In this document: piece by piece, positions 1,736 to 29,756 of the stretch
Layout: each line of letters starts with the position of its first letter
How positions within the stretch are numbered: position 1 is the stretch's first letter
IMG/VR virus record: IMGVR_UViG_3300044626_000768
Coordinates: 1 to 35,013 of that record
DNA length: 35,013 nt
From: a virus
Reading direction: 5' to 3' (one strand)
Position numbers and translations under genes: made by a program
Notes under the pieces: generated by a model
The model's input: the letters and a program-made list of their open reading frames with translations, nothing else
Told to the model about the DNA's origin: nothing
Database searches by the model: none

Positions 1736-2131
1736 CTACTCATAATTACTGGGTTTTCCTAAATTGGATACAAACGAATCTTTGAAGACCCTACTTCTTA
1801 TATCTTTCTCTCGTTGTTTATCAGCTAGGTACATGCCTCCAGCAACTGTCAAAATAGGCCTACCTGTCAAACTTAATGCTCCTATACCTGCCGCTGTCTT
1901 TAGCCAGTCTAAAGCACTGGTTCCTGCATAATTATGATAAATAGGACTACTCATATCTCTTGAGTATTCCATTAAATTATCTAAACTATTGAACTGCCCT
2001 GTTTTTCCAATCTGTAAACCTAATCTACGCGCTTTGGATAGTTCACTTTCCTGGCCACGCAAGGCACCTACGACCGCGCCAGCGATCGCAGCATTGGCAA
2101 TAGCTTGTAATACATTATCCTGAAGACTCAT
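1736..2131 (-). CDS. hypothetical virion-type protein with Ala/Gly-rich segments
   Basis: 131 aa. Two hydrophobic stretches are visible, near residues 8-23 (AIANAAIAGAVVGAL) and 83-106 (AAGIGALSLTGRPILTVAGG). The C-terminus carries REKDIRSRVFKDSF, matching REKAIRNRMFKEEF at the end of the upstream neighbour, so the two genes are probably distant tandem paralogues sharing a C-terminal tail. The ATG at 2131 overlaps the neighbour's stop by one base. Function unknown; a virion role is inferred from position. Confidence 0.55.
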   Translation of the reverse strand: MSLQDNVLQAIANAAIAGAVVGALRGQESELSKARRLGLQIGKTGQFNSLDNLMEYSRDMSSPIYHNYAGTSALDWLKTAAGIGALSLTGRPILTVAGGMYLADKQREKDIRSRVFKDSFVSNLGKPSNYE

Positions 2132-2874
2132 CAGACACCTAAAATACCCTGGCTAGCCCGTTGAAACTCTTCCTTAAACATTCTATTCCGTATAGCTTTC
2201 TCCCGTTGTAAGTCCGTACCTGTTATAAGACCAGCTGCTGCTGCAATAGGGTTAAGGCTAGGCCCTCCTGTAAATGCACCATAGGCTAATGTCTTACCAA
2301 AGTCATCAGCACCTATATTGCCAGCGAGATCCTGTAGTTGAACATTGCTCTCAATATACTCCATGGCTTGGTCTATATTCATACCAGACCCCGCCAATTC
2401 TCGTGCTAGTTGTTTTGCCTGATTCTGTCGTTTTCTATCACCCCGCAGAACACTAACGACAGCCTCTCCTACGTCAAATACATCACCAACTAAATTAAGA
2501 CCAGGTATAAAGTTTATGGCTGTTCTAAGTGCATTAGACTTTTCTAGTCCTTGGGCTAATTTTTCGCCTGCAAATCTAGTACCAGGAATAGTCCTTGCAA
2601 CTTTTTCTCCAGCATCATTGCGCATCTTCCCAATGTTTTCTGGAAGTCGTTCATTGAAAGGAACTTGTAATCCTTTCCTAAAGTTTTCGATTTTCTCTGG
2701 TGCCATAACACCAGGAGTAGCCGTTCTTTCTAAATACGCTTTACCTGGCTGAATATAAGTATCTTCTAAGGTATCCCTCCAGCCTCCAGGCGTTAGGAAC
2801 CGACGACTTACATTGCTAAGGCTATACTCCGTATTGCTTGTAGGTACACGATTCGGATCTTGTATTTCTTTCAT
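2131..2874 (-). CDS. hypothetical virion-type protein
   Basis: 247 aa. The N-terminal half is polar and basic with many prolines; the middle has a hydrophobic stretch (INFIPGLNLVGDVFDVGEAV, about residues 119-138); the C-terminus has an Ala/Gly segment (NPIAAAAGLITG) followed by the REKAIRNRMFKEEF tail shared with the next gene. ATG at 2874 overlaps the upstream stop by 4 nt. Not recognised. Structural or ejection protein by context only. Confidence 0.55.
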   Translation of the reverse strand: MKEIQDPNRVPTSNTEYSLSNVSRRFLTPGGWRDTLEDTYIQPGKAYLERTATPGVMAPEKIENFRKGLQVPFNERLPENIGKMRNDAGEKVARTIPGTRFAGEKLAQGLEKSNALRTAINFIPGLNLVGDVFDVGEAVVSVLRGDRKRQNQAKQLARELAGSGMNIDQAMEYIESNVQLQDLAGNIGADDFGKTLAYGAFTGGPSLNPIAAAAGLITGTDLQREKAIRNRMFKEEFQRASQGILGV

Positions 2875-3104
2875 CGGATATAGCCTTCTTTTGCCTCAAA
2901 AAGATTTGGACCTTTCATAGCCGAAATTCTTACTTTATTTAATTGACTATAGGGGTCTTTCATAATAGTATCCGTAAAACTTCCGGCATACCTAAAATAA
3001 TTACTTTCTGTTGGAATAAGTCTTCCAGCATAATAAACACGATGCAACAAATAACTACGTGGAACGGCATTAAGACTCCGCCTTCCAGAAATTGTTCGTT
3101 GCAT
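2871..3104 (-). CDS. small basic hypothetical protein
   Basis: 77 aa starting MQRTISGRRS; rich in Arg and Tyr, no hydrophobic segment. It lies 11 nt after the helix-hairpin-helix gene and overlaps the following gene by 4 nt, so it is embedded in a tightly packed operon. No family recognised. Confidence 0.5.
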   Translation of the reverse strand: MQRTISGRRSLNAVPRSYLLHRVYYAGRLIPTESNYFRYAGSFTDTIMKDPYSQLNKVRISAMKGPNLFEAKEGYIR

Positions 3105-3115
3105 CGCGTGCCAAC

Positions 3116-3595
3116 CTAATCGAAGGAAATCGTATCTTTGTAGCTATCCCAGTTGATTCCTTTAATCGATGATAAATCATCAATCGATGAAAATTTTCCA
3201 CCTGGAAAGTTACGTCGTAATTCTAGTATACGACCTGCGGTAATAGGTCCAATACCTTGAATTACAGAACCTGACAAATCTTGTGCAGTCAAGTTAGGGT
3301 CATTGATATAAACTTTCGTCTTATCACGTACCACCACTTCTTCACTTGATTCTACTACAGGTTCTACAACAGAGTCGGATTGTTCCTTGGCTTTACGTTT
3401 TTGTTGGACTGCTGCAAACGAAATGACCTCTGCTTGTGCAGGGAATTCGATCTCATCCTCAACAGCCGTAAACGTTCTAGCGTATTCACCCTGAGAAGAA
3501 ATTTCTTTCAGGGTGAAATATCTAAGGTCACCATCACGGAACTGACCGACCACTGTGCATTTTGCAAGGCTACGCTTGTGAGTAACAATGGTCAT
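3116..3595 (-). CDS. ComEA-like helix-hairpin-helix protein
   Basis: 159 aa. Residues about 97-155 form a tandem helix-hairpin-helix of the ComEA type: IND at 98-99, then LTAQDL, the hairpin GIGPITAGRI at 114-123, and a second hairpin around FSSIDDLSSIKGIN (135-148). Such domains bind DNA non-specifically through the backbone. The N-terminal half is beta-rich without a visible signal peptide, and an acidic linker joins the two. It sits two genes after the capsid gene, so it could help organise packaged DNA or act at the portal; that role is inference. Confidence 0.7.
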   Translation of the reverse strand: MTIVTHKRSLAKCTVVGQFRDGDLRYFTLKEISSQGEYARTFTAVEDEIEFPAQAEVISFAAVQQKRKAKEQSDSVVEPVVESSEEVVVRDKTKVYINDPNLTAQDLSGSVIQGIGPITAGRILELRRNFPGGKFSSIDDLSSIKGINWDSYKDTISFD

Positions 3596-4227: not shown

Positions 4228-6339
4228 CTAACTCGCAAAGGTGCGGACGACTTGGATAAAGTCTAGGTTCAACGGCTCAAAGCCTGCATATAACTGCCAG
4301 ATGGCAATTACAAAACGGCTAAAGTCATCGTTGTTGTTCAGCAACACCTGGGCATTGGGGCCTCCTACCCCCATGCCTAATGCTTGGGGGCCAAAAAAGA
4401 TACCCAAGTGCGCATCAAGACTATTTACCGAAGCAACCGGCATGTTTGTTGACTCAAAAAATCTCCGAAGTTACGTTCAAGTTTTTTATCTTAAACTCTC
4501 CCTATTTCCCATATTGCGGGAGTTTCGGCCTATATCTTATACTAGTTATAACTATCTAATTTGAAACCTGAAATGAAACTTTCTAAAGAAAATTTAGCCA
4601 ATCTTTTCAGGTTTCGAGGTACTGGTCTAACTAGTATCTGGGCACTCGTGGAAGCATTACTGTCCGTTCTGGACTCGGCTTCTAGGCTCTGAACCTTCCT
4701 CTCATCCCTGAGAAGGCTTGGCTGCTGATTACCCATGCGGTTAAGCCTTTTCTAGCATTTACGTCTATCCTCGCGGATTCCGCTTTAGCGTCTTAACCTA
4801 TTCCATTTGGGGAGGGTTTCCAGACAATTCACCCAGTTATTGCCTGCCTATCACTAGGCAGCGGCGCAAGATCGCATGAGTCGTGCGATTGATTTTACGC
4901 CTTCAAAAACAAAGCCACTCGGCATCACGGGCTGTCCCTGTGGCGTATTATACTGGTTCATCTGAGGCCCACCATAGATAGCCATGTTGGGCTGCATCCC
5001 AGGAAAACCAGGATAACGTGCGACTTCACGAAACGAAGTATCTTGCCGAAGGTGCTTCATGAACCGAGGCGAACATAGGCAACGATAGTTACCATCTTCA
5101 AACGTAGGCACATTGCGATTACGAAGATTTTCCACAACAGTCAACAAGTCAGTTGCAATATTGAACTTACTTGAAGATTGTGTGCTTGCGTCTGCAATAC
5201 CGCCAGGGTTGTAGGTATTGGTAGACTTCAGCGCTTCGTTAATCCAGACACGATCACGCCAACGACGATCAATCTATTACCCGTAAAGCTCTTTATTTTT
5301 ACGTTCTTGCTCTTTACGTCGAGCAAGTTTAGACTATCTCTTCTACTTTCCTTTTATCAAGAAAGTAGCAGGGCACTCGTGGGAGGATTACTGACTGGTC
5401 TAGTCTCGCCTCCTAGTCGTTGGACCTTCCACCTATCCCTAGATGGCTTGGCTGCTGATTACCCATGCGGCTAGAACTTTTTAACCATTGTGCGTCTACC
5501 CTTACGGGTTCCGTTTTAGGGTTCTAGCCTGCTCCACCTTGGCGTTAGGTGGTGAGGGCTTCCAGCAATTCACCCCGTATTTTTTGAACGGTGTTACCAC
5601 CGAACCGACCTACGCCATTGCTAAGTCATCAAGTAAATTGAGGCTACCAATCGATTGATGGAAACCGGCCACTCCCATGTCCCATAGCATCCGTTGAGCA
5701 CGGAGAATGGTTAACTTGGGAATCTTAAAGGTACTCGGGGCAGTAGGATCTCCAGGATCTGCTGGCCCAGTGTATTCCTTCAGGCTTACCAGTACCTTCT
5801 CTTTGGTGATCGCTCGTGAGTTAGCAGTACCAATGGTTTCTGCTGCTTCACGTTCACGATTCTCTTTCGTTCCTGGGCTCATTTGTTATCCTAAGGGCTT
5901 TTTATCCCCTAGTTCTTACGGTTTATCATCCCGCAAGTTCGGCATATATCTTCACCATTTCAGGTGTTCGGCACTCTTGGCTGCTTATCATCCTGAGTTA
6001 GGACTCGCTAGATGGTTCTCCATCCAGATTGAACTTTTAACTTAGTTCAATACAGCTATGCTCTGAACCTTCTAAACATTACTGTTTAGCTTGGCTGCTG
6101 ATTGGCCACTAAATGAAGGCTTCCCAGCAATTCACCGAATTTATTACCTATTAGTTTCCTAGTAGGAGGGCAGCTAGTGTACCCCAATAGGAGTACCGAT
6201 CCAGTTGGATCGTTTCTCCGGGTTGCTTCGAAAAGTCCCACACGATCAATGGTGAAAACACCATTTCGGCAATGTAGGACGGATGGGGGCGAAAAAGCTC
6301 GGCCCCTAGTAATTGCGGAAATGCGGCATCAATGTACAT
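4228..6339 (-). CDS. major capsid protein, four exons interrupted by three group I introns
   Basis: Four reading-frame pieces join into one 341-aa HK97-type capsid protein. Predicted exons: 6339-6181 (53 codons, ending YSYWG), 5879-5624 (starting SPGTKENRERE, ending LLDD plus one base), 5269-4897 (continuing Y-RRWRDRVW, ending FEG plus two bases) and 4465-4228 (continuing V-RFFESTNMP to RTFAS and stop). Phases agree at every junction, and splicing recreates the motifs LLDDYRRWRDRV and FEGVRFFESTNMP. Unspliced, each exon runs into a stop within the following intron. ATG 6339 has AGGAG 12 nt upstream. Capsid identity comes from fold-type motifs and from position after portal and scaffold. The middle junction is the least certain. 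Confidence 0.85.
4466..4896 (-). ncRNA. group I intron 3 in the capsid gene (431 nt)
   Basis: Core elements on the minus strand: P with AATTGTCTGGAAACCC (4818-4829 region), Q as GTAATCAGCAGCCAAGCC (4715-4732), R as GGTTCAGAGCCTAGAA (4680-4695), S as AAGATATAGGCC (4527-4538). P7 pairs GCCTA of R with TAGGC of S. P1 pairs exon GGCGT with GCGCC, giving the expected U-G pair at the 5' site; P10 pairs the next exon's GAGATT with GATCTT. The P1 loop holds its own hairpin (ATCGCA/TGCGAT). No endonuclease gene is inside. Confidence 0.88.
5270..5623 (-). ncRNA. group I intron 2 in the capsid gene (354 nt)
   Basis: Core elements on the minus strand: P AATTGCTGGAA (5560-5570), Q GTAATCAGCAGCCAAGCC (around 5445-5462), R GGTCCAACGACTAGGA (5411-5426), S GAGATAGTCT (within 5327-5340). 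P7 pairs GACTA with TAGTC. A P9 hairpin CTTGCTC/GAGCAAG and a further hairpin CGTAAA/TTTACG follow S. The 5' boundary after GACT pairs with GGTC, giving a terminal U-G; the 3' boundary is chosen by reading phase and the DDYRRW motif, since P10 is not convincing here. No open reading frame inside. Confidence 0.85.
5880..6180 (-). ncRNA. group I intron 1 in the capsid gene (301 nt)
   Basis: Core elements on the minus strand: P AATTGCTGGGA (6122-6132), Q CCAATCAGCAGCCAAGC (6089-6105), R GGTTCAGAGCATAG (6056-6069), S AAGATATATGCC (5941-5952). P7 pairs GCATA with TATGC. P1 pairs exon GGGGT with GCCCT and P10 pairs the next exon's AGC with GCT; the terminal intron base is G. P9-region hairpins CTTGCGG/CCGTAAG and CTAGGG/CCCTTAG follow S. 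This is the shortest of the three, and it has no coding insert. Confidence 0.87.
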
Positions 6340-6409
6340 TACTAGTCATTTCTCCTAGCTTAGACAACTTGGGAGTCCTACTGGGAGATATGATTCCTAC
6401 TTGTTAAAG

Positions 6410-7134: not shown

Positions 7135-7162
7135 AAAAAAAGCCTGGGTGTTACCCCAGGCC
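7135..7162 (-). terminator. intrinsic terminator after the scaffold gene
   Basis: On the minus strand, GCCTGGGG and CCCAGGC form a GC-rich hairpin followed by seven T. It ends the terminase-portal-scaffold transcript 20 nt after the scaffold stop, so the capsid gene needs its own promoter or read-through. Confidence 0.8.
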
Positions 7163-7181: not shown

Positions 7182-8306
7182 TTACGAATCCATTGCGAGA
7201 ACAGTTCCTCGAAATGCGCCTGCATTTTGTAGGTAGTCAACAATTTTCCAAGCTTCTGCTGGGTTTTGTTGATACGCCTGGCCCAGCATACTAATGTCAA
7301 CGTTCTGGCCAGCTCCAGCAGATTGAGGAGGGGCAGGAAAGCTAGGCCGTTGATAACCGATAGGATCGACCAAACGGCTTGTCGTAGAGTCCAAGCCAGC
7401 GCCATCGGGTTGAATCCGTGGATCATAGCTAGGCTCTTGGCGATAGTTGTAGTCGAACTGCTGACTTTGTTGCATAGCGGCTAATTGTTCCTTTGCTTCA
7501 TCTACAGGATAAGGACCCTCAGGGCCATAGAATTCCATTACATACTGGGCCAACAGATTAGGATCTGTCATTAACTGCCGGGCAGCAGCCATCTGGCTTT
7601 CAGTAGCTTCGAGCTGACCCGCCATATTAACCAGGCCAGCTTCTAGCTCACAAGCAAACTGGTTTACACCATCCAAGGTATAACCAGCAGCTTTTAGCTC
7701 AGCTTCAGACGGATAATAGGCATCAGTCCTTCTTACGCCGCTTAGGGGTAAGTCGCTTCGCGGCGGCTGTGAAGGTCGGGAAGAGTTGTTGTAGGATGCC
7801 TGGTTGGCGGATAAGGTCTGATTCCCCATAGACCGGAGGGGTACTCCCATAGGTTGCCCCTGGAACTGAGGCTGGGCCTGGAGGGGACTCGGACTGGATG
7901 GTTGTACCTGATCCTGGTATTGGGGTTGTGAATTCTGGCGGAAGCTGACCGGCGTTGCCAGCAAATCCAATGCCTTGTTCAGTGCTTGGGCGAATGGGTT
8001 CGAAGAATTCCCATCGGCTGCTGGGCTGTTGTAATTCCCCTGCTGTTGGTAACCCACCATATTGGGAGGGGTCGAGTAACCCTGCGGCATAGCCTGAGGG
8101 GCTGGTGCCTGCTGTTGGGGCACCGGAAACTGGACCACGTTCGTCGCCGGTTGGGCGTACTGGGGCATTTGGGCCGCTGATCCCTGGGTAGGGTAGCTGA
8201 CCTGCTGGGCCTGCGGATAACTGCCCTGCGGGGGTGCTATTGTTATCGGCGGGGATGCCTGACCTTGCACCGAAGGGGCTGTCATCGGTATATACGTTTC
8301 GCTCAT
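7182..8306 (-). CDS. putative scaffolding protein, overlapping the portal gene
   Basis: 374 aa from ATG 8306, which has GAGGA 8 nt upstream; a GTG two codons earlier is less likely. Residues 1-195 are Pro/Gln-rich and disordered, then a helical region (SEAELKAAGYTLDGVNQFAC; LEATESQMAAARQLM) and an acidic C-terminus. Placement between portal and capsid and the helical, disordered make-up match phage scaffolds. The first 584 nt are also read in another frame as the portal C-terminus. Not identified by motif, so scaffold is a positional inference. Confidence 0.6.
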   Translation of the reverse strand: MSETYIPMTAPSVQGQASPPITIAPPQGSYPQAQQVSYPTQGSAAQMPQYAQPATNVVQFPVPQQQAPAPQAMPQGYSTPPNMVGYQQQGNYNSPAADGNSSNPFAQALNKALDLLATPVSFRQNSQPQYQDQVQPSSPSPLQAQPQFQGQPMGVPLRSMGNQTLSANQASYNNSSRPSQPPRSDLPLSGVRRTDAYYPSEAELKAAGYTLDGVNQFACELEAGLVNMAGQLEATESQMAAARQLMTDPNLLAQYVMEFYGPEGPYPVDEAKEQLAAMQQSQQFDYNYRQEPSYDPRIQPDGAGLDSTTSRLVDPIGYQRPSFPAPPQSAGAGQNVDISMLGQAYQQNPAEAWKIVDYLQNAGAFRGTVLAMDS

Positions 8307-9972
8307 TATCACTTCCTCGGGATAACTCTTTTAACATCTTTTGGAACAATGTAAAGATCATTTGATCAATATATTGTCCATACTTAAACGCTAACGGGAG
8401 GTCAGGCTGCAATGGATCTTGCGTCTGCAAGAATACTTGCAATAAAGACGTTAAATTCTGTACTATTCCTAGTGTATTAGAAATACGTCTAAATGGCACT
8501 CCGCCTAACATCTTATCAATTTCTTTTTCTGTTTTGTCTGGGAAAAGAATTTGCATTTGAGCGATCGTATCAAAACCTTCTTCAGATAAGTTACGACCTA
8601 AAATACTTTTCTGTTGTAAATCAATAGGTCCATCTTCAAAGACAGGTCCGGTAAATCGCCATAGTACTGTTCTATCACCTGATGGCCTTAACCCTACTAC
8701 TCCCGGTGGTAATGGCTTTCCTTTTATTTCTTTCCCTTTATCATCTGTTCTATCATCTAGATAGAAGTCAATAAATTCAGGACTTATATTGCCATCTTTT
8801 TTTACATTCCAATTGATAGCAACTTCAAAAGAACGTTCAAACAAATATTCTTCAGCAGATACTGCTAGTTCAAATAACTTACATAGACCATAAGTATATA
8901 ACGGAACTGCCTTACGCATTGCCGTAGCAGCAGCTCTACCGTATAAACTTTTAATTTCAAATGCTGTTGCACCTGCATTGATACCATTCTCAGAAACACC
9001 ACCTAGGGCAGTCCTAATAAATTCTTCATACTGCATCGCCCAGCGGTTTTGGTCTCCTGATACAGCATCTGGCTGAATAAAACCAAACCGTTCCTCTGGC
9101 TCTACCCCACCAATGACCGGTTTAATTTTGGCAAACCGTGTTTCTTTATTTTGACCATAGTCATACTTAAAGGTAGACGGCGAATCTGCACTAGCGAAGG
9201 CTGCACTACTAGAAATTGTCCTTGGAATAGAAGACGATGAAAATGCGCTCTCTGTTACTTCCTGAGTATTACGAGTAGTAACTAGACTAGGATTCCCAAA
9301 GAATCGTATATTGTTATTGATCGCATTCATCAGATCATTATGCTCTTCGATCTGAGAAGCAATAAAGTCAAAATCTCCTATCCCGCGCTTGCCAATAGCG
9401 GTTGGATTATTATCAACTACAACACAGGGAATAATACCTAACGTATTTTTTACAACTTCTTCATTGGCAATACCTACAGGACTTAGGGCAAATCCAGGAT
9501 TGCTATCATAGGTTCCCCGTTTAATTGTTTCTTCTGTAATCTCTAACCGGACCCATTTCTCTTGGTCCATATTAGTTAGTGCAGATTTTACCTTGTAGGG
9601 ATAGGTAATAAGTACCTTCTCTATTTCTCTGCCACCTTCTCTGTAAAATACTTCAAACTCTTGTTTTTTATACCAATGAATATCATAGGTATTGCCATAG
9701 GGCCGTAGATAGAACAGTACACTACCTGTCGCAGTAAATACCTCCCATATTGCCTGCAAGTAAATATCAAGTCTATTTCGTTCCCATAGGCCTTTTATAA
9801 ATTTCTTTCGTAAATCGTAAGGATCATGGGCTGGGAAAAATTCAACACCTTGTCGTATGCCAAATAAAACCATCTGTGAAAGATGGTTTGATACGATCAT
9901 TGTATTGATTGATTCGCCACCTTCTCTATTTAAGGCTGCACTAATGATCTGATGTACGTTACTGCGTTGCAT
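7723..9972 (-). CDS. portal protein
   Basis: 749 aa, close to the size of portals of P22-like short-tailed phages. The region VVDNNPTAIGKRGIGDFDFI followed by EEHNDLMNAINNNIRFFGNP (about residues 186-235) is the classic portal stretch before the stem. A long helical region follows. From about residue 560 the chain becomes Pro/Gly/Ser-rich and ends in the basic tail AAKRLTPKRRKKD; this segment is exactly where the scaffold gene overlaps in another frame. The portal forms the dodecameric DNA channel at one capsid vertex and docks the terminase, encoded upstream in the same operon. Confidence 0.85.
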   Translation of the reverse strand: MQRSNVHQIISAALNREGGESINTMIVSNHLSQMVLFGIRQGVEFFPAHDPYDLRKKFIKGLWERNRLDIYLQAIWEVFTATGSVLFYLRPYGNTYDIHWYKKQEFEVFYREGGREIEKVLITYPYKVKSALTNMDQEKWVRLEITEETIKRGTYDSNPGFALSPVGIANEEVVKNTLGIIPCVVVDNNPTAIGKRGIGDFDFIASQIEEHNDLMNAINNNIRFFGNPSLVTTRNTQEVTESAFSSSSIPRTISSSAAFASADSPSTFKYDYGQNKETRFAKIKPVIGGVEPEERFGFIQPDAVSGDQNRWAMQYEEFIRTALGGVSENGINAGATAFEIKSLYGRAAATAMRKAVPLYTYGLCKLFELAVSAEEYLFERSFEVAINWNVKKDGNISPEFIDFYLDDRTDDKGKEIKGKPLPPGVVGLRPSGDRTVLWRFTGPVFEDGPIDLQQKSILGRNLSEEGFDTIAQMQILFPDKTEKEIDKMLGGVPFRRISNTLGIVQNLTSLLQVFLQTQDPLQPDLPLAFKYGQYIDQMIFTLFQKMLKELSRGSDNERNVYTDDSPFGARSGIPADNNSTPAGQLSAGPAGQLPYPGISGPNAPVRPTGDERGPVSGAPTAGTSPSGYAAGLLDPSQYGGLPTAGELQQPSSRWEFFEPIRPSTEQGIGFAGNAGQLPPEFTTPIPGSGTTIQSESPPGPASVPGATYGSTPPVYGESDLIRQPGILQQLFPTFTAAAKRLTPKRRKKD

Positions 9973-10005: not shown

Positions 10006-10488
10006 TCATCGAAGTTCATTGATACGTTCCATATTAAATTGCGATTTTGTTTGCCATACAATCTTGTCGTATAGGGCCATCAATCGGGTAATCAAATCAA
10101 GACTTACATAATCGCATTGATTGTTAGCAATATTGGCACATTCATTGGCGACCATTTTAGCTTTTACTAGATTCTCAGCAAACAATGGCAAAGCTACATT
10201 TTTTTCTGCGGGTAAGGGTATTTCCCCGATTGAACTCCATTGAATTACAGCACTTAGGGCACCCAACGGAAATTCATCTAGTTGTCGAATCCGTTCTGCT
10301 ACTTCATCCTTGAAGTTTGAAAGCAGTTCATAGATGTCTTTAGTCCACTCATGAACCGAAAGAAATGGACAGTCTGTCATATTCCAATGGATTGAATAGG
10401 CTAAAAATTCAAGCTTAATGATGTCAGCAAATACTTGGTTCAAGCATTCCGACATCTTGTACTGATCGGTATTAGTATCCATTGTCAT
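10006..10488 (-). CDS. dps: Dps-like ferritin family protein
   Basis: 160 aa, the usual Dps length. HW at 34-35, H46 in SVHEW, then D61 and E65 in KDEVAERI reproduce the Dps ferroxidase spacing (12, 15 and 4 residues apart, as in the E. coli protein), so the iron-oxidising site looks intact. Dps dodecamers store iron, remove peroxide and often bind DNA. The gene overlaps the upstream gene by 17 nt and precedes the portal, inside the packaging operon and so probably expressed late. The N-terminus is short and not strongly basic, so DNA binding is uncertain. A role in protecting packaged DNA or as a virion component is inference. Confidence 0.85.
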   Translation of the reverse strand: MTMDTNTDQYKMSECLNQVFADIIKLEFLAYSIHWNMTDCPFLSVHEWTKDIYELLSNFKDEVAERIRQLDEFPLGALSAVIQWSSIGEIPLPAEKNVALPLFAENLVKAKMVANECANIANNQCDYVSLDLITRLMALYDKIVWQTKSQFNMERINELR

Positions 10489-11689
10489 ACCTTATAGGAT
10501 AGTTAAGATTCCTTTGTGCTTCCTGCCGTCTTGCTTCACGGTTTTGACCGATGTTATGAGCTATGACAGCAAGCAGACCGGCCCCGCCTGCTCCTGCTAG
10601 TCCTAGCCTTACCCTAGGGTCTTGCAGCAACGTACCAGCTAAGCGTGGATTATCAGCATCATCGATGATTGCTTCTACGGGAATCTCATCGACAGCCACC
10701 CTATTTATATCATCCAAGGCTTTCTGCCTTAGATCATCTAATATCATCGATTCGTACGTAGGTTTTATAGGAACATTTTCTGGCATTACCTGAGCCATTT
10801 CGACTTCTACAGGCTGTTCGTAATAACGAATCCCGTCAGGGCTGAGAGCATTTAGATTTTCCCGCATTGTAGGAAGTCCGTCTTCTCTTAATTGTCTTAC
10901 ATTTAGCCCAAACTCATGCTCTAATATAAACTTTTGAAGGTCTTTTGCTTCTTGATCTTTTAAGTGCCTTTTGAACCTAAAGGGTGAATTTAAGAAGACT
11001 TCTGCTTCACGGCTACTAAAAGCTCTCCTGGCAGCGTCTGTCATAAACCTGGCGCTTAATGGTTTCTTTTGTTGTTGAATAGCGGCTTCGGGCAGTTCAG
11101 TATTTTTCCAATTGACTGGAGGTTTAGCCAATATCTGTTCGACAATCGTGGTTTTAGGAGTGCCGTAGTCAGCAGTATTTTCTGCTACTATCATTCTTGG
11201 TCCATCTATATCGCCTTCAGCGACTGGATCATACTCATAGTTAACGTTAGTCCCGTAAACTTCAGCTTCACTTGGCAACGCTGGTTGCCAACGTCCACCC
11301 TTTAACTCCCATCGCTCTCCGTTTACAATCCTCTCGAAGATGCTGTTGCCAGTAGGCCTAAGCGGCACATCTTCTGTCACGACAGTCTCGACTACTGGAG
11401 CTGCGGGCTCAACCCTAGCAATAGGAACTTCAACAACTTCTTCTTGTGTTGCACTAGGCCAATCAACGCCAGATTTTGCTAGAGCTGCAATTAGCGCATC
11501 TCCTTTCAAGGTCATTCCTGTCCCGCTGGCCCGATAATCATAAAGAGGATTATCTTCTGATACCCTCACTATGACTGGATCTGCGGAAGCTGTCTCTATA
11601 ACTTCATCAATAATTCGTTTTGGCTTTTTGACAGGCTGTCCAGTCAAGCCTCGCAAATAAGAATTGTTAAACTCATTTCCCTTATTCAC
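10472..11689 (-). CDS. hypothetical protein with C-terminal glycine-rich segment
   Basis: 405 aa from GTG 11689, 7 nt after the large terminase stop. The first two thirds are polar, with many valine/glutamate linkers; near residues 367-388 lies a Gly/Ala hydrophobic segment (LGLAGAGGAGLLAVIAHNIG) followed by basic EARRQEAQR. The segment design recurs in other proteins of this block. Not recognised; a virion or ejection protein by context. Confidence 0.6.
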   Translation of the reverse strand: MNKGNEFNNSYLRGLTGQPVKKPKRIIDEVIETASADPVIVRVSEDNPLYDYRASGTGMTLKGDALIAALAKSGVDWPSATQEEVVEVPIARVEPAAPVVETVVTEDVPLRPTGNSIFERIVNGERWELKGGRWQPALPSEAEVYGTNVNYEYDPVAEGDIDGPRMIVAENTADYGTPKTTIVEQILAKPPVNWKNTELPEAAIQQQKKPLSARFMTDAARRAFSSREAEVFLNSPFRFKRHLKDQEAKDLQKFILEHEFGLNVRQLREDGLPTMRENLNALSPDGIRYYEQPVEVEMAQVMPENVPIKPTYESMILDDLRQKALDDINRVAVDEIPVEAIIDDADNPRLAGTLLQDPRVRLGLAGAGGAGLLAVIAHNIGQNREARRQEAQRNLNYPIRYDNGY

Positions 11690-11696
11690 GACCTAT

Positions 11697-13277
11697 CTAA
11701 TCCTCGCTTGACAGTGGTTGATATTTAATCATTCCCCTAACCAGGTGTACAAACGCATCTTGCAGGTCATCATGGTCTGTTGCGCCATGTTGGGTTAACT
11801 CAGTAATAAGTCGAGACATATCTCGATACTTATTAAATTCAATCAACCCATCTTGAAATACACCTGTTATTGATTTTAGCCTTAAATCTTTGTCTCCTCT
11901 CACTTTTACTGGCTTACATCTTAAATTCCATAGCTGATACTTGTTATCTATAATCCTCTTCCAATCATGTTGAAAACTAACCTGATACTGAACTGCTTCA
12001 GCAAATACTGTTAATGATAAATTCTCATTCGGTACATAAGGCTGGGTTTCACTATTAGTCTGATAAATTACCCCCCATTCAACGCACATTTCTATCAACT
12101 TATCAATCTTGTCTAAGTTACCTGGCCATCGGCCTCGAACTGCTTCCAAAATGATGATTGATTCTTTTTCTTTTTTTCTAATATCATCTACCTTATGTTT
12201 ATTTAGTGCACCCATTACCATCGCGGTATAATCCCTACGCTCCTTACTCATTCCACTTAAGTCAAGCCCTATGCCAATACTTTCGGGCTCTTTTGGCAAA
12301 ATATCTGTATACCGTATCCAGGCAGGATCAATAGATATATCACTACTCTTTGCTACCTTATTTTGGTATTGAAACGAGAAAGAGATTGGGTCTTTCTCTC
12401 TCATTTCATATAATCCTTCGATTTCATCGCCATGGTCATTAAACTGTGACCGATAGGGAAATCGTGTTTCCCAGTAACTAAATTCTTGCCCTTCATTGTC
12501 GGTAAGAATCGCTTCTTGTTCTACGACTGTCCATCCATTTTGCTCTGTAAAATCACTAGCATGGAGGTCATCTGCCCTAAATCTAGTGCCAATTGCTAAC
12601 ATCCTACCGCCAGGCACTAGGGTTGGCTTAGCTGCATCTCTCCAGTTGTTTGATATTTTTTCTCGTATATCACCACTTTCAATTGACTCACGGCTTTTGA
12701 TTGGGTCATCTACTACAATCAACCATGATCGTTTAGATACAATCCCGCCATCAATCCCAACAGCATACAATGTATAATCTTGCTCCAGGTTAGATACCCC
12801 TGCAAATTGTTTATCGATCTCCCACTCACCATCATTAAACTTCTTCTTATTAGGCCTAATATGTGGAAATACTTCTTGGTATTTAGGCGTTTGTAAGATT
12901 CTTTTTATAATCCGACTACGACTAAGGGCAATATCTGTTTTGTACGATAGATAAATAATCGGTATTGCTGGATTATGGCCAATAATCCACGCTACTAAAT
13001 AAGAAATAACTGTTGATTTAGCGGCCCCCCGTGGCGACAGGATTGATATATTAGGCCCAGCTACCATGCTAAGAACATGGTTTGATCGACCTGTCACCCA
13101 ATGGCTTACCCATTCTTCCATGTGACAATGGGCAATCGTATGGCCGCTTATATAAGCCATGAAGGCAGGGAAATCATTCCTTGCCTGTTTTACTTCATCG
13201 CTTACGAATATATCCTCAGCCGATGTAGCGTAATGTCTTGCCTTGAACTGATGCCGCCGCCATGCTCTTGTTGGCAT
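11697..13277 (-). CDS. terL: terminase large subunit
   Basis: 526 aa packaging motor. The ATPase domain shows Walker A SPRGAAKST at 81-89, Walker B LIVVDD at 186-191 and the coupling motif GTRF at 230-233. The C-terminal RNase H-like nuclease begins at GIGLDLSG (335-342, catalytic Asp 339), with a late acidic cluster in TDHDDLQDAF near residue 505. Length and motif order are complete. It follows the small-terminase candidate after 8 nt. The enzyme cuts concatemers and pumps DNA through the portal. Confidence 0.95.
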   Translation of the reverse strand: MPTRAWRRHQFKARHYATSAEDIFVSDEVKQARNDFPAFMAYISGHTIAHCHMEEWVSHWVTGRSNHVLSMVAGPNISILSPRGAAKSTVISYLVAWIIGHNPAIPIIYLSYKTDIALSRSRIIKRILQTPKYQEVFPHIRPNKKKFNDGEWEIDKQFAGVSNLEQDYTLYAVGIDGGIVSKRSWLIVVDDPIKSRESIESGDIREKISNNWRDAAKPTLVPGGRMLAIGTRFRADDLHASDFTEQNGWTVVEQEAILTDNEGQEFSYWETRFPYRSQFNDHGDEIEGLYEMREKDPISFSFQYQNKVAKSSDISIDPAWIRYTDILPKEPESIGIGLDLSGMSKERRDYTAMVMGALNKHKVDDIRKKEKESIIILEAVRGRWPGNLDKIDKLIEMCVEWGVIYQTNSETQPYVPNENLSLTVFAEAVQYQVSFQHDWKRIIDNKYQLWNLRCKPVKVRGDKDLRLKSITGVFQDGLIEFNKYRDMSRLITELTQHGATDHDDLQDAFVHLVRGMIKYQPLSSED

Positions 13278-13285
13278 AGAGCCTC

Positions 13286-13942
13286 CTATGGCGCACTAAA
13301 GACCTCATGTTCTATCTGTTTTAACGCACCAATGCACGCTTGACGCACTACTTCTTCATTAGCCTGGTCTTTGAATTGGTTTAGGATAATATCGACCAAT
13401 CGTTGTGCCCCTGCCATCTCTGCATCTCGCACCGTATTGAACGCATTGTTGCGTTGAATGTCTTTATACAATGCGCTAATTGTTCGTTGTAGAGCGGCAA
13501 CCTGAGCCAATACTTGCTCTGGTGCAATATCATCAACGCCTTCTCTCTCTAGCCGTTCTGTTAGCTGCATACAAAGCTGTACAGATTGAGCTAATGAAGA
13601 ATGTAATACTTGATCGTAGTCTAATCCTACATAGCCATCGGTCAGGGCATTAAGGATCTGAGCTTTTTCTCCTACTGGGTAATGCTTTCGTAGCCAGTAA
13701 GTAATATTAGAAATACTAGGAACTACATGTATCCAGTTTTCTGGAAAATGAGAATGGTATTCATACTGTACTTCTGATAGCCACTTTTGAATATCAGAAG
13801 ATCGTTGATTAAATCTAGTAAATTTCTTAAAATCAGACGCAATATCATCAGGTAGATGCTCTAGTATCTGCTCTACCACTGTTTTACGAAGTCGTTCAGA
13901 ACGCTTCTCATTGTTATTTGTACGCCGATGGTTCCCGGTCAT
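13286..13942 (-). CDS. putative terminase small subunit
   Basis: 218 aa, helical, with a basic N-terminus (RRTNNNEKRSERLRK), a helix-turn-helix-like stretch around SISNITYWLRKHY and a coiled-coil C-terminal half (LAQVAALQRTISALYKD). It directly precedes the large subunit and overlaps the upstream stop. Position and the helix-turn-helix plus coiled-coil plan fit small terminases; no diagnostic motif is present, so the call is tentative. Confidence 0.5.
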   Translation of the reverse strand: MTGNHRRTNNNEKRSERLRKTVVEQILEHLPDDIASDFKKFTRFNQRSSDIQKWLSEVQYEYHSHFPENWIHVVPSISNITYWLRKHYPVGEKAQILNALTDGYVGLDYDQVLHSSLAQSVQLCMQLTERLEREGVDDIAPEQVLAQVAALQRTISALYKDIQRNNAFNTVRDAEMAGAQRLVDIILNQFKDQANEEVVRQACIGALKQIEHEVFSAP

Positions 13943-16001: not shown

Positions 16002-16838
16002 CTATACCTTTTCGTTGACCAAATTGATTCCAGTTCCTATCAATCCACCTATGCCTAATGCAGCTGATAATGCTCCTGCAAATCTAGCAGCTTTTAATAC
16101 ATTGTCAGTCTTTCCTAAAACCTTTTCGCTTAATTGACGATAGGCAAGGTCATCTATTAAATGATAGCCTCTTCCTAACAAATCAGCACCTATCCTATTA
16201 TCTTTAACAAAAACAGTCTTTCCACCAATTTCTAATGGATTAAAACCTGCTTCTTCAAACCGTCTTACTCTTGAACTTTGTAGTCCATCACTATCTTCTG
16301 GTGCTGCTACATACAATCTTTTATTATTAGGATCTGCCAAGAAATCAGGTAATCTTATTTTTGCTTGGTCAATTTCTTCCCTAATTTCTCTTAACCTTTT
16401 ACGATCTATTCTTTCACTTCCAACACTCGTATTACCGTCAACCCTTAGTTCTACAACTCTACTAGGATTTACTCCTAAACTAACTCTCTTTCCTTTATAA
16501 ATGTTGTCAGCCGCCTCAGTGCCAGGTACTGCCCATGTTCTATCACGCCAGCTAAGTGCCATCTTTTGTGCAGCTTCTGGTGCTACAGAGGCTAGCAATG
16601 GAAAGCTTATTCCTGCACTAACAGCACCGATGCCTGTCCCTATCGCATTATCAGCAATGTCAGATAATTCATCAATCTGATCTTCTTTCCTTCTCAGTTG
16701 TAAAATCAACGTAGCAGCATCAGGATTATCCCTAACAATACGTTTCCATTCCGCATTGCTAAAGCTACCCGCTTCTCTCACTTCTCCAGTTAGCGGGTCG
16801 ATCAATTCAGGTATCCTGTTGCTATATTCTTGTTCCAT
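16002..16838 (-). CDS. hypothetical protein with two hydrophobic segments
   Basis: 278 aa. Hydrophobic Gly-rich segments lie near residues 66-86 (GTGIGAVSAGISFPLLASV) and 253-273 (AGALSAALGIGGLIGTGINL), with a soluble basic region between them. ATG 16838 shares one base with the upstream stop. No family recognised; the paired segments suggest membrane contact. Confidence 0.55.
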   Translation of the reverse strand: MEQEYSNRIPELIDPLTGEVREAGSFSNAEWKRIVRDNPDAATLILQLRRKEDQIDELSDIADNAIGTGIGAVSAGISFPLLASVAPEAAQKMALSWRDRTWAVPGTEAADNIYKGKRVSLGVNPSRVVELRVDGNTSVGSERIDRKRLREIREEIDQAKIRLPDFLADPNNKRLYVAAPEDSDGLQSSRVRRFEEAGFNPLEIGGKTVFVKDNRIGADLLGRGYHLIDDLAYRQLSEKVLGKTDNVLKAARFAGALSAALGIGGLIGTGINLVNEKV

Positions 16839-18166
16839 TAAAATTCCTCTACTCCTATCCCTCTCATTCGTTTTACCCTTTCAGGCCTATTGTCTTCATA
16901 TACATAGAATTTGCCTTTTACTTCGTCAACGGCATAATTCTTATCATAGACATTATCTAACCACCGGGTTAGTGCATCATGATTGTCAAATACTTTTACG
17001 TGACTTCTAGGTATAGGCCCACCCGGAGGACCTACCGCTTCTTCGGTAAATCGTCCCTTCTGCTCTAGGTCGAGTCCTAATTGTTTTGGTACATTCGTCA
17101 TAGATTTATTTCTTAGCGCCCTTGCGCCTAGCTTCATCCCAGCCCCCAATGCAGCAGTAGCCGCAATAGCTTTGAATGGTATTCGATAACCCAGGAATTC
17201 TATTTCGCCTACTGGGTCATCAGGTGTCTCTGTCGTGCCATGCAAGATGCCTAAACTGGTCGGTACATCAATAGCTACCTCCTTTGCTAGAGGTGCTGTT
17301 ATGCCGCCTAGCAATGCTCCAGCGATTCTATTTCTACCAGTCGCATTACTAGCTACTGCGCCAGCGATCGCTCCTAATGGCGCACTGGTCTGGACTGGCA
17401 TATTTTCAAGACCAAAGAATGTATTTTCTTGTTTTGCGGCTCTAAATCTGGCATACTCTTCTGGCGTTACATCTGGCCGTTCTGCCAGAAACTGCTCTTC
17501 CGGCAAAATTCTACCCGTTCTATTTAGGAAGTATCGTGCAGCAATTTCAGCCGCTGGATTGTTACTCTTTGTCCGATTTAAGACAATTTCTACTTCGCCA
17601 GTCTCTGGATTAACTTGCTGGGTTTCTTTAGGGAATAGGACCGAATATCCCTTAGGCCTACCTGCTTCATCCAAGTTGGTTAAGTCAATATTGCCTGTAG
17701 CTAATTCCATGCCAAGGGTAAGGCCTGTAGCACCTAGTGCAGCCCCTAAAGGCCCTACGCCTTCGCTCTTCATGATATTGCGTCCTACCAGGCCTGTAAT
17801 AGCCTGGGGCGCATTAATCAACCACCATAGATTACGAGTTCCATCGCCAATGTAGTCACCAGCTACCTGTCCAACCCGTTCAATTCCTTCATCAGCCAAT
17901 ACATTACTACGTTCTCGTTTGGCTGCTTTTAACGCTTCTAAAGCAGCCATATCGCCAGGGTTAGCGGCTAATGCCTCCCTGGCCTGCATCATCTTTCTAT
18001 TTGCATCACTTTTTCTAATATTTAATATTCTTGCCCGTTCCAATTGTTCCTTACTAGGAGCGGACATAGCGCCTCTAACGACTGACATGCCTAGGTTTTG
18101 CCTCATTGAGTTTACTAATGTATCCCAACGAGGCCTAAGCCTAGACACTATTGTGTTATCGACCAT
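16838..18166 (-). CDS. hypothetical virion-type protein, first gene of the block
   Basis: 442 aa. The N-terminus is basic and helical (ERARILNIRKSDANRK; AAKRERSNVLADEGIE). Several Ala/Gly hydrophobic stretches follow, including PLGAALGATGLTLGMEL, APLGAIAGAVASNATG and AIAATAALGAGMKLGARAL. No enzymatic motif is seen. As first gene it lies 104 nt downstream, in the transcription direction, of the 57-bp repeat at 18270-18326, which may carry the operon's promoter. Confidence 0.6.
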   Translation of the reverse strand: MVDNTIVSRLRPRWDTLVNSMRQNLGMSVVRGAMSAPSKEQLERARILNIRKSDANRKMMQAREALAANPGDMAALEALKAAKRERSNVLADEGIERVGQVAGDYIGDGTRNLWWLINAPQAITGLVGRNIMKSEGVGPLGAALGATGLTLGMELATGNIDLTNLDEAGRPKGYSVLFPKETQQVNPETGEVEIVLNRTKSNNPAAEIAARYFLNRTGRILPEEQFLAERPDVTPEEYARFRAAKQENTFFGLENMPVQTSAPLGAIAGAVASNATGRNRIAGALLGGITAPLAKEVAIDVPTSLGILHGTTETPDDPVGEIEFLGYRIPFKAIAATAALGAGMKLGARALRNKSMTNVPKQLGLDLEQKGRFTEEAVGPPGGPIPRSHVKVFDNHDALTRWLDNVYDKNYAVDEVKGKFYVYEDNRPERVKRMRGIGVEEF

Positions 18167-18398: not shown

Positions 18399-19070
18399 AT
18401 GACAACCTATAGCAATATAAGTCTATCTTGTATTCATCCAAGCGCTTGCAACTATTTCTCTAAAATCCTTGAATCCACAGGTGATCCTAAGGAGTTATGG
18501 TTTATTGGGCGTGGAACACCCCCGCCTTCTTACCCTATTGATCATTTTATTAAACTAGATAGTCCATACGTGTCTAGGCAACATGCTTGCCTTCGATATT
18601 CAATTATCGATGATTACTGGCAAATTAGACACATTGGCAGTACCCATCCTACTTGGCTAAATGGTACAAAACTAACTGCAAATGAATGGCATGATATTAC
18701 CGAAGGTGCCATTGCTAAGTTTGCAGTAGACGAATGTAAGCTTATATTTTCTTACTACATCGATGATACTATCCAGAATCTACCCTTTTTTGACACTACA
18801 GAAAAGTTACAACAATTACCATCTACCGAGCAGGTTATTGTTCCTGTTCCAGCGTCAACTGTTATTGTTGAGCAAGATCATAAAACACCTTTTTGGCAGG
18901 TAGCTTTTATTGATCAGGTATTTGATGAACTTAGCTCTTTATCAAATACCAAGCTTATAATTTACTTAATGTTCTTTTTGGCTGGTCTAACAATCTTTTT
19001 GTTATACGGTGCCGCAAGCATTCCCAATTTACCTGCCGTTAATCAAGAGGCTCCCCATACTTTTGATTAG
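18399..19070 (+). CDS. FHA-domain membrane protein
   Basis: 223 aa. Residues 34-115 form an FHA domain: IGRG at 36-39, IKLDSPYVSRQHA at 51-63 (Ser59, Arg60, His62) and GSTHPTWLNG at 80-89, the residues that read phosphothreonine. A linker follows, then one strong transmembrane helix at about 185-205 (LIIYLMFFLAGLTIFLLYGA) and a short tail. FHA domains recruit threonine-phosphorylated partners, so it could dock a host or phage phosphoprotein at the membrane. It is followed after 7 nt by the 1266-aa gene, probably co-transcribed. No clear ribosome site. A phage FHA membrane protein is unusual. Confidence 0.85.
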   Translation: MTTYSNISLSCIHPSACNYFSKILESTGDPKELWFIGRGTPPPSYPIDHFIKLDSPYVSRQHACLRYSIIDDYWQIRHIGSTHPTWLNGTKLTANEWHDITEGAIAKFAVDECKLIFSYYIDDTIQNLPFFDTTEKLQQLPSTEQVIVPVPASTVIVEQDHKTPFWQVAFIDQVFDELSSLSNTKLIIYLMFFLAGLTIFLLYGAASIPNLPAVNQEAPHTFD

Positions 19071-27302: not shown

Positions 27303-27926
27303 ATGACCCGCCTTGGGAGCAAACTAACCAAGGCATTACGAAGTATCAAAATGATTGAAGAATACTTAGACTACGCCACGCAAGTGTCTCTAGTCTCCTT
27401 GGCTAGAGATATTTGCGTCAGGGCACCCCTGTATAGGGCAGAAATGCCCAACACAGGGAAACCATTCACCTACTACCAGTCTGGTGCCGGATGGGGCTGG
27501 ACATCTGGCCATGGTGGCGGCTACCGCTACCAAACCACCCATCCTGTTACTGGGGCTACCTTACCGCAGATTCCTGATCAACTACTTGACATAGCCCGTA
27601 AACACGGGCTGGAGGCGGATAGCCTCCTAATTAACTGGTACACTCCAGGGTCATCCCTGGGGCTGCACCGGGATAAAGACGAGAAGTATCGGCATCCAAT
27701 AGTTTCCATCTCACTGGGAGATCATGCGATATTCCAGTTGGGTGGAAACATTCGCTCTGCCAGAACTACTGACATAGAGCTGATCTCTGGATCAGTTCTA
27801 ATTATGTCTGGCAACAATCGTTCCCGCTTCCACGGGATCAAGACAATCTTACCTAACACCTGTATCCACCCAGGCTTGCTTAAGCAGCCTGGCCGGATCA
27901 ACCTGACTCTCCGCAGGAGTCAGTGA
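27303..27926 (+). CDS. alkB: AlkB-like 2-oxoglutarate/Fe(II) dioxygenase
   Basis: 207 aa. The iron-binding triad is His122 and Asp124 in LHRDKDE and His177 in SRFHGIK; Arg198 and Arg204 in GRINLTLRR bind 2-oxoglutarate. PIVSISLGDHAIFQLGG (132-148) and LISGSVLIMSGNNR (160-173) match AlkB core strands. AlkB enzymes repair methylated bases by oxidative demethylation. All catalytic residues are present, so activity is expected. It is translationally linked to the upstream membrane protein. It may protect phage nucleic acid from alkylation or act on a modified host target; substrate is unknown. An internal ATG at 27351 is an alternative start. Confidence 0.93.
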   Translation: MTRLGSKLTKALRSIKMIEEYLDYATQVSLVSLARDICVRAPLYRAEMPNTGKPFTYYQSGAGWGWTSGHGGGYRYQTTHPVTGATLPQIPDQLLDIARKHGLEADSLLINWYTPGSSLGLHRDKDEKYRHPIVSISLGDHAIFQLGGNIRSARTTDIELISGSVLIMSGNNRSRFHGIKTILPNTCIHPGLLKQPGRINLTLRRSQ

Positions 27927-28812: not shown

Positions 28813-29280
28813 ATGTCCTCACGTGGCCTAAACGTTTGCACTCTCGCCGGCAACCTCGCCGCTGACCCCGAGATTCGTACCATTCCTCTTCGGGATGGTA
28901 CATCTACTCAGGTAGCCGATCTAACCATCTATGTCGATCGCATTCCCAGTCGTAAGGAGAATGACAGCTTTACTGTCGATATTACCGTATGGGAAGGCTC
29001 TGCCGCCTGGCGTAAGCTAGGCTACATCAAGAAAGGTTCCCTGATTATTGCCAGTGGAGCCATTGATGCTTCTCCATACGTCAGGAAGGTTGACAGTCAG
29101 GCCCGTGCTGGCTTGAAGCTTAAGGCTACTGACATCTTCCTTGACTCCAGTCCAAGAGTTGAAGAGTCCGACCCTCAGACTGAAGCTTCTCTTGAGGAGC
29201 AAACTCCTGTACAGGAGGAAGCGCCTAAAACCCGCCGCCGTTCTTCTAAGAAGGAGGAATTAGCGGCAACTGTTAGCTAA
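28813..29280 (+). CDS. ssb: single-stranded DNA-binding protein, paralogue 1
   Basis: 155 aa, one OB-fold. NVCTLAGNLAADPEIR at the N-terminus is the SSB signature first strand, followed by ADLTIYVDR, FTVDITVWEGSAAWRKLGYI and KGSLIIASGAI. The C-terminus is not the usual acidic tip: after a Glu-rich linker it ends basic (TRRRSSKKEELAATVS), so it may not recruit the usual SSB partners. It covers single-stranded DNA in replication or recombination. The paralogue downstream keeps the canonical tip. Confidence 0.88.
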   Translation: MSSRGLNVCTLAGNLAADPEIRTIPLRDGTSTQVADLTIYVDRIPSRKENDSFTVDITVWEGSAAWRKLGYIKKGSLIIASGAIDASPYVRKVDSQARAGLKLKATDIFLDSSPRVEESDPQTEASLEEQTPVQEEAPKTRRRSSKKEELAATVS

Positions 29281-29366: not shown

Positions 29367-29756
29367 ATGTCCTCACGTGGCCTAAACGTTTGTACTCTTG
29401 CCGGGAATGTGGCTGCTACTCCTGTACTCAAGGAGCTGCAAGGCGGCAATGAACTCGCTGAGTTCACTATGTATGTTGACCGCGTTCCTAGTCGCAAGGA
29501 AAATGACAGTTTTACCATTAAGGTTACTGTCTGGGCTGGTACAGCAGCTTTTCGAAAGATCGCTTACATCGATAAAGGAAGCCTCATTATTGTCACTGGC
29601 AAGATTGATGCTTCTCCTTACATCGCTAAAACTGATGGTAACCCCCGTGCTGGCTTGCAAGTTACTGCTGCGGACATCTTCCTGGACTCCAGTCCTCGGA
29701 ATCAGGATGAGGCTCCTGCCTCTGCTGACAATTTCGATGACATTCCTTTTAGCTAA
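29367..29756 (+). CDS. ssb: single-stranded DNA-binding protein, paralogue 2
   Basis: 129 aa, OB-fold with NVCTLAGNVAATPVLK, AEFTMYVDRVPSRKEND, FTIKVTVWAGTAAFRKIAYI and KGSLIIVTGKI. It ends in NFDDIPFS, close to the canonical DDIPF tip that docks replication and repair proteins. The N-terminal MSSRGLNVCTLAGN is identical to paralogue 1, and both share ASPY and FLDSSPR, so this is a tandem duplication. This copy is the better candidate for the replicative SSB. Confidence 0.9.
   Translation: MSSRGLNVCTLAGNVAATPVLKELQGGNELAEFTMYVDRVPSRKENDSFTIKVTVWAGTAAFRKIAYIDKGSLIIVTGKIDASPYIAKTDGNPRAGLQVTAADIFLDSSPRNQDEAPASADNFDDIPFS

Follow-up and report, generated by a model that had tools for sequence, protein, structure and literature searches.

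A Dps-type mini-ferritin encoded among the packaging genes of a deep relative of cyanophage S-EIV1

Proteins of the Dps family assemble into hollow cages of 12 subunits, in which Fe2+ is oxidised, preferably with H2O2, and stored as ferric oxide. Members of the family encoded by phages have been described from Lactobacillus phages (PMC6669764) and, in the gut, from ‘Gratiaviridae’ and 36 other phage genomes (PMC8008677). In the parts of both papers considered here they are explained as a help against oxidative damage, that is, as oxidative-stress genes by which the phage helps the host cell. A tblastn search with one cyanobacterial Dps found 159 phage records, including Synechococcus phage S-SRM01. 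Phage-encoded Dps is thereby common to the virus reported here, Lactobacillus phages, Grimontviridae (phiEco32, 7-11), Streptomyces phages and S-SRM01. In the phages whose loci we inspected, Dps stands near tRNA genes or genes for DNA and nucleotide metabolism, unlike in the present case; its neighbours there include thyX and the genes of a dCTP deaminase, thioredoxin, pgpA, tRNA or a glycosyltransferase. Our literature search, which covered few subscription articles, yielded neither a paper on Dps in a terminase or portal operon nor one on Dps of a cyanophage.

The lineage of Synechococcus phage S-EIV1 has a ferritin as well. In S-EIV1 itself this is a 184-aa protein (AHV82153.1, 18619-19173) annotated as ‘DNA-binding ferritin-like protein’, whose gene adjoins that of a sulfate adenylyltransferase and is located 35 kb from the gene of the terminase large subunit (TerL). 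Ferritins of this type carry an N-terminal Pro/Lys extension and were confirmed in 201 IMG/VR stretches; in the best 80 of these 201 loci the ferroxidase motif is present in 80/80, and neither TerL nor portal was found in the flanks (up to 10 kb per side) of any. Phage Dps is already known, also in the S-EIV1 lineage, and what is unusual about the gene described below is its place among packaging genes.

This gene lies at 10006..10488 on the minus strand of a virus record of 35,013 bases classed as linear (IMG/VR IMGVR_UViG_3300044626_000768), the whole of which was analysed and is called the window here. Its ORF encodes 160 aa from an ATG start. Counting from Met1 (which was left out of the Pfam, PHROG and PDB queries), His-34, His-46, Asp-61 and Glu-65 form the ferroxidase pattern H-x11-H-x14-D-x3-E, which is found once when the window is translated in all six frames, within this ORF, and arose in 7 of 100,000 shuffles of the residues of the protein. 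The same pattern is found in 80/80 bacterial relatives, a sample biased by having been chosen for similarity to the window protein. The assignment to the Dps family is independent of the motif because the protein matches the Pfam family PF00210 (Ferritin) with 37.5 bits (cut-off 24.5), PHROG 3636 with 9e-15 and, in a PDB sequence search that gave 69 distinct sequences at E <= 1, Helicobacter pylori NapA as the top match with 3.6e-12.

An AlphaFold2 monomer model of the protein (pLDDT 92.1, pTM 0.87) contains helices at residues 5-36, 42-69, 78-84, 96-123 and 127-159, corresponding to a four-helix bundle with a short BC helix. All 50 rows listed by Foldseek belong to the Dps family (top 2.5e-8, TM-score 0.87), and VIA-align of the model gave a Z-score of 23.6 to Pseudomonas aeruginosa Dps and about 23 to the Dps proteins of Thermoleptolyngbya, Thermosynechococcus and Nostoc. 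The original prediction of a Dps-like ferritin with these four residues in Dps ferroxidase spacing is borne out, since the residues occupy the positions claimed and the nearest folds to the modelled four-helix ferritin bundle are those of Dps. In comparison with H. pylori NapA, P. aeruginosa PA0962 and the Thermosynechococcus and Nostoc Dps, the window protein is alike in the H/H/D/E ligands, the bundle, the BC helix and the length, but it is only 24-28% identical to the best structures, has a lysine four residues after His-46 and is encoded in a phage packaging run. Judged by its sequence and predicted fold, it is a genuine Dps mini-ferritin. The best identity to any known Dps is about 33%, with no cellular Dps closer. 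Although 113 of 292 cyanobacterial genomes matched at E <= 0.001, no cyanobacterial donor is named because the best match is only ~32% identical. Close relatives in IMG/VR were not found by a single-protein scan, and an alignment-based scan gave 239 pattern matches, of which 0 were confirmed.

The closest annotated relatives of the portal protein and TerL of the window are those of S-EIV1, with identities of 35.2% and 38.6%, each over 98%, and S-EIV1 is also matched by several other window ORFs and by a split capsid gene. The features of an S-EIV1-like lineage, namely homologous TerL, portal and capsid genes in the same order, are present, and these comparisons make the virus a deep relative of S-EIV1. 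Single-protein scans of IMG/VR with the portal and with TerL retrieved no relatives, so that alignments with S-EIV1 were needed; scans with two-row alignments (window and S-EIV1) found at least 526 portal and at least 580 TerL relatives, of which the best 80 each were used. The nearest TerL among the matches listed is that of locus L308 (45% identity). Of 386 cyanobacterial genomes, one has a related portal; it lies on a 74-kb contig (G330 contig 9; L384, L385) whose TerL is 44% identical to that of the window. In a TerL tree of 28 chosen rows the window joins L309, L308 and the G330 contig with a support of 100/100, beside relatives of S-EIV1; S-EIV1 itself is absent from this tree because an intein-like insertion splits its match. 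This long insertion is situated in the ATPase region of S-EIV1 TerL (L002, 10081-12621), and the window TerL is without it. The photosynthetic host assumed at the outset is likely, and probably cyanobacterial, in view of the nearest isolate S-EIV1, of the relative on a cyanobacterial genome contig and of a psbA gene in another relative. At 4705-5640, L308 has an ORF that by eye resembles a tyrosine integrase. A temperate or plasmid-like life is possible for the nearest relatives (G330 contig, L308).

On the minus strand of the window, uncharacterised ORFs are followed by a 218-aa ORF (13286..13942), TerL (11697..13277, 526 aa; PHROG 38, 4.6e-63), a 405-aa ORF (10472..11689), Dps, the portal gene (7723..9972, 749 aa; PHROG 20475, 8.7e-147; portal PHROG 64, 4.9e-7), an ORF that extends down to 7182, a hairpin and the capsid region. 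The 218-aa ORF directly before TerL has relatives in L308 (5e-15), L309 (2e-6) and L385 (6e-16) and would occupy the usual place of the small terminase subunit (TerS). For the 405-aa ORF there was no Pfam or PHROG match and no relative in the TerL-portal intervals compared. Because it runs 17 nt into the Dps ORF and the portal start is 33 nt downstream of the Dps stop, these three ORFs are read as one gene run, and the packaging run including Dps may form a single transcript. The terminator-like hairpin behind it (7141..7162, minus strand) has 8 pairs followed by a T run and is a consensus match only. Promoter-like sites (18) are fewer than in shuffles (mean 24.3) and permit no inference about a promoter of Dps itself. 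The placement between terminase and portal genes given in the original prediction stands insofar as Dps is located among packaging genes and directly before the portal gene; it needs correction on the other side, where TerL is not adjacent and the 405-aa ORF intervenes. The ORF after the portal gene (7182-8312, minus strand) stays open for ~590 nt within the portal 3' end in another frame, and similar overlapping open frames are seen at the portal 3' ends of S-EIV1 and L308.

We compared the TerL-portal interval in 130 of 159 sequences from the relatives listed, some of which are near-duplicates; in the remaining 29, TerL or portal was missing in the flank or the distance filter was not passed. 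The usual content is three small conserved ORFs, found in 121, 105 and 99 loci. Dps is present in 1 of the 130 sequences, the window, and in 0 of the 129 others. In two records, L053 and L057, which share 99.96% identity across 13.3 kb and represent the same virus, the interval contains psbA, the gene of the photosystem II D1 protein (2069-3190 and 7682-8803, respectively; PF00124, 6e-90). Like the window Dps, this psbA is cargo of the same lineage in the same interval, but it stands directly after TerL and the usual three small ORFs are retained. For the genus-level group of S-EIV1, the relevant part of PMC5332604 lists only hli and ptoX. An HNH-like ORF was seen in the interval of two loci (0.0022, below the cut-off). 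The product of psbA is not known to have a role in the virion. Since the interval accepts cargo, a virion role of Dps cannot be argued from its position alone. Viewed as a cargo slot for Dps and psbA, the interval helps to predict the sites of auxiliary genes in S-EIV1-like viruses.

A survey of 50 of 81 lineage loci, the longer ones, found PF00210 in 9/50 records (8 over the cut-off), among them 7/7 of those longer than 60 kb. Two further relatives have a tailless type of ferritin. The window protein shares lineage, ferritin domain and ligand spacing with AHV82153.1; it has H-W where the latter has H-L, lacks the N-terminal Pro/Lys extension, and the S-EIV1 protein has its acidic residue at H+5 rather than H+4. 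The best ungapped segments between the window protein and S-EIV1-type ferritins reach 26-36% identity over at most 66 aa. In a tree the window Dps lies on a long branch (4.68 changes per column) outside both the S-EIV1-type and the tailless clades, which hints at an independent origin. We do not claim one, because the data do not reject a joint clade of the window Dps and the S-EIV1 type (p-AU 0.55, with six long-branched phage rows left out). The window Dps may be a moved and diverged copy of the lineage ferritin or a separate acquisition.

We think it probable that the gene encodes a late-made ferroxidase, carried as auxiliary cargo, that clears the infected cell of Fe2+ and H2O2. The protein would assemble as a small hollow cage of twelve subunits, at whose two-fold contacts His-34 and His-46 of one subunit and Asp-61 and Glu-65 of its partner would bind Fe2+. 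The bound Fe2+ would be oxidised, preferably by H2O2, and the ferric oxide stored inside the cage, and the removal of Fe2+ and H2O2 would keep hydroxyl radicals from arising. As cargo in the terminase-portal interval, Dps is probably co-transcribed with the late packaging genes, which would place its synthesis in the photo-oxidative stress of the infected cyanobacterium. It more likely works in the infected cell, as a guard of DNA and cellular machinery, than in the virion. The family, the ligands, the gene position, the predicted fold and the use of the slot in a relative all favour this reading, and from them we infer the 12-mer, its catalysis, its late expression, its benefit and its location in the cell. 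In addition, Dps lies on the same strand as the packaging genes, with overlapping ORFs, elsewhere in the lineage the ferritin gene is separate from them, and the protein is acidic and has no basic tail. On the other hand, the top identity of ~33% and the lysine after His-46 could mean altered chemistry, and psbA in the slot is known from one virus. Furthermore, a terminase-associated Dps in T4-like contigs suggests that packaging operons may be a favoured place, rather than any cargo slot. If Dps is made together with terminase and portal, iron and peroxide would be controlled at the time of DNA packaging in an oxygen-making host.

These T4-like contigs emerged from a scan of IMG/VR for Dps of the bacterial type, which found 439 relatives; the best 80 all carry the motif and are stand-alone proteins of 143-174 aa. 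In 7 of these 80 (L395, L396, L400, L411, L412, L436, L463), Dps is located between TerS and TerL, and a tail sheath gene comes next where the contig is long enough. The order TerS-TerL-sheath is that of T4 gp16-gp17-gp18, into which Dps is inserted. Collapsing near-identical contigs leaves about five (L395, L400, L411, L436, L463), and because the arrangement is kept while TerS diverges down to 51% identity, it is stable. As in the window, Dps lies inside the terminase run and overlaps or nearly touches its neighbours; however, these are unrelated phages, Dps precedes TerL rather than following it, and their Dps proteins show no special closeness to that of the window. The context survey covered 34 of the 80 loci after thinning by Dps similarity, with 118 of 124 neighbour ORFs annotated, and since only two terminase contexts stand against some 30 others in these thinned loci, the placement may be due to chance. 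Structure-library entries labelled Prohead protease contain a Dps-like domain, seen as labels only; a fusion of Dps with a prohead protease was absent from the best 80 of the 439 loci, all of them stand-alone.

Speculative, and on balance unlikely, is the idea that at least two unrelated kinds of phage, S-EIV1-like and T4-like, each put Dps under the packaging operon because iron and peroxide are most dangerous where DNA is cut and packaged. Dps would then be a ferroxidase coupled to packaging, which might even travel in the head and enter the cell along with the genome. Somewhat more doubtful still is a Dps that belongs to packaging or the virion as such, with the cage beside the motor or in the head, where it would shield DNA from iron and peroxide during cutting and packaging, or afterwards in sunlit water. 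The location between TerL and portal, the conserved TerS-Dps-TerL order and the labels of the Prohead protease entries speak for it, but the other 129 lineage intervals contain no Dps, psbA fills the interval in one relative, the protein is acidic (pI 4.65) and has no basic tail, and most other inspected phage Dps genes are found among nucleotide-metabolism or other non-structural genes. We keep a link to packaging alive at low probability because of the T4-like Dps between terminase genes, and this group can serve as another, independent system for testing it.

Loss of catalysis, with the ferritin fold now in a structural or regulatory role, would agree with the long tree branch and with the lysine four residues after His-46, a position at which the 80 bacterial relatives have E (48), M (31) or Q (1). 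This is improbable, since at only 22-30% identity to 50 aligned bacterial Dps proteins the window Dps retains every column that is invariant in them; over all 51 rows 14 columns are invariant, and the four core ligands are among them.

Even less probable is an E. coli-type Dps that binds and compacts DNA and would condense phage DNA or shield it, as the family name and the PHROG 3636 label ‘DNA binding protein’ would have it. Neither end of the protein is rich in Lys or Arg (net charge -1 over residues 1-11 and 0 over the last 11), the whole carries a net charge of -9, and the equivalog model of E. coli Dps (NCBIfam NF006975) gives 57.1 bits, half its cut-off of 114. The role in the capsid or in DNA binding that had been suggested for this gene is weakened by this charge and the missing basic tail as well as by the 129 intervals without Dps, the psbA in the slot and the distance of S-EIV1-type ferritins from packaging genes. 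An assembly chimera, in which a bacterial dps was joined to a phage contig in error, would suit a linear metagenomic record for which no near-identical record was found, but we give it hardly any credence given the 17-nt overlap upstream, the 33 nt to the portal gene on the same strand, the lack of host genes around it and the lack of any cellular Dps closer than ~33%.

Several other features of the window and of S-EIV1 were observed. The capsid gene of the window (4231-6345, minus strand) seems to be broken into four parts, whose matches lie in the same order along a single S-EIV1 ORF; the three gaps, at 5915-6190, 5306-5633 and 4505-4894, match the group I intron model RF00028 with 59.9, 65.6 and 48.3 bits, respectively (cut-off 50; weakest E 1.5e-10). 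In the nearest relative, L308, the capsid gene is unbroken. The matching S-EIV1 ORF (16854-18008 of L002, plus strand) lies in a region (16785-18011) that corresponds to 60784-62010 of the S-EIV1 record, where the annotation has a hypothetical gene on the minus strand and a short gene on the plus strand but does not show this ORF as such. On the plus strand, the window encodes an AlkB-like 2OG-Fe(II) oxygenase (27303-27926; PF13532, 1.2e-37), an enzyme that needs Fe(II) and may function in DNA repair. Two neighbouring SSB genes (28813-29280 and 29367-29756, plus strand) have identical first residues and perhaps stem from a recent duplication. Finally, an FHA (phosphothreonine-binding) protein, unusual in a phage, is encoded at 18399-19070 (plus strand; PF00498, 4.6e-9) and has a hydrophobic stretch near its end.
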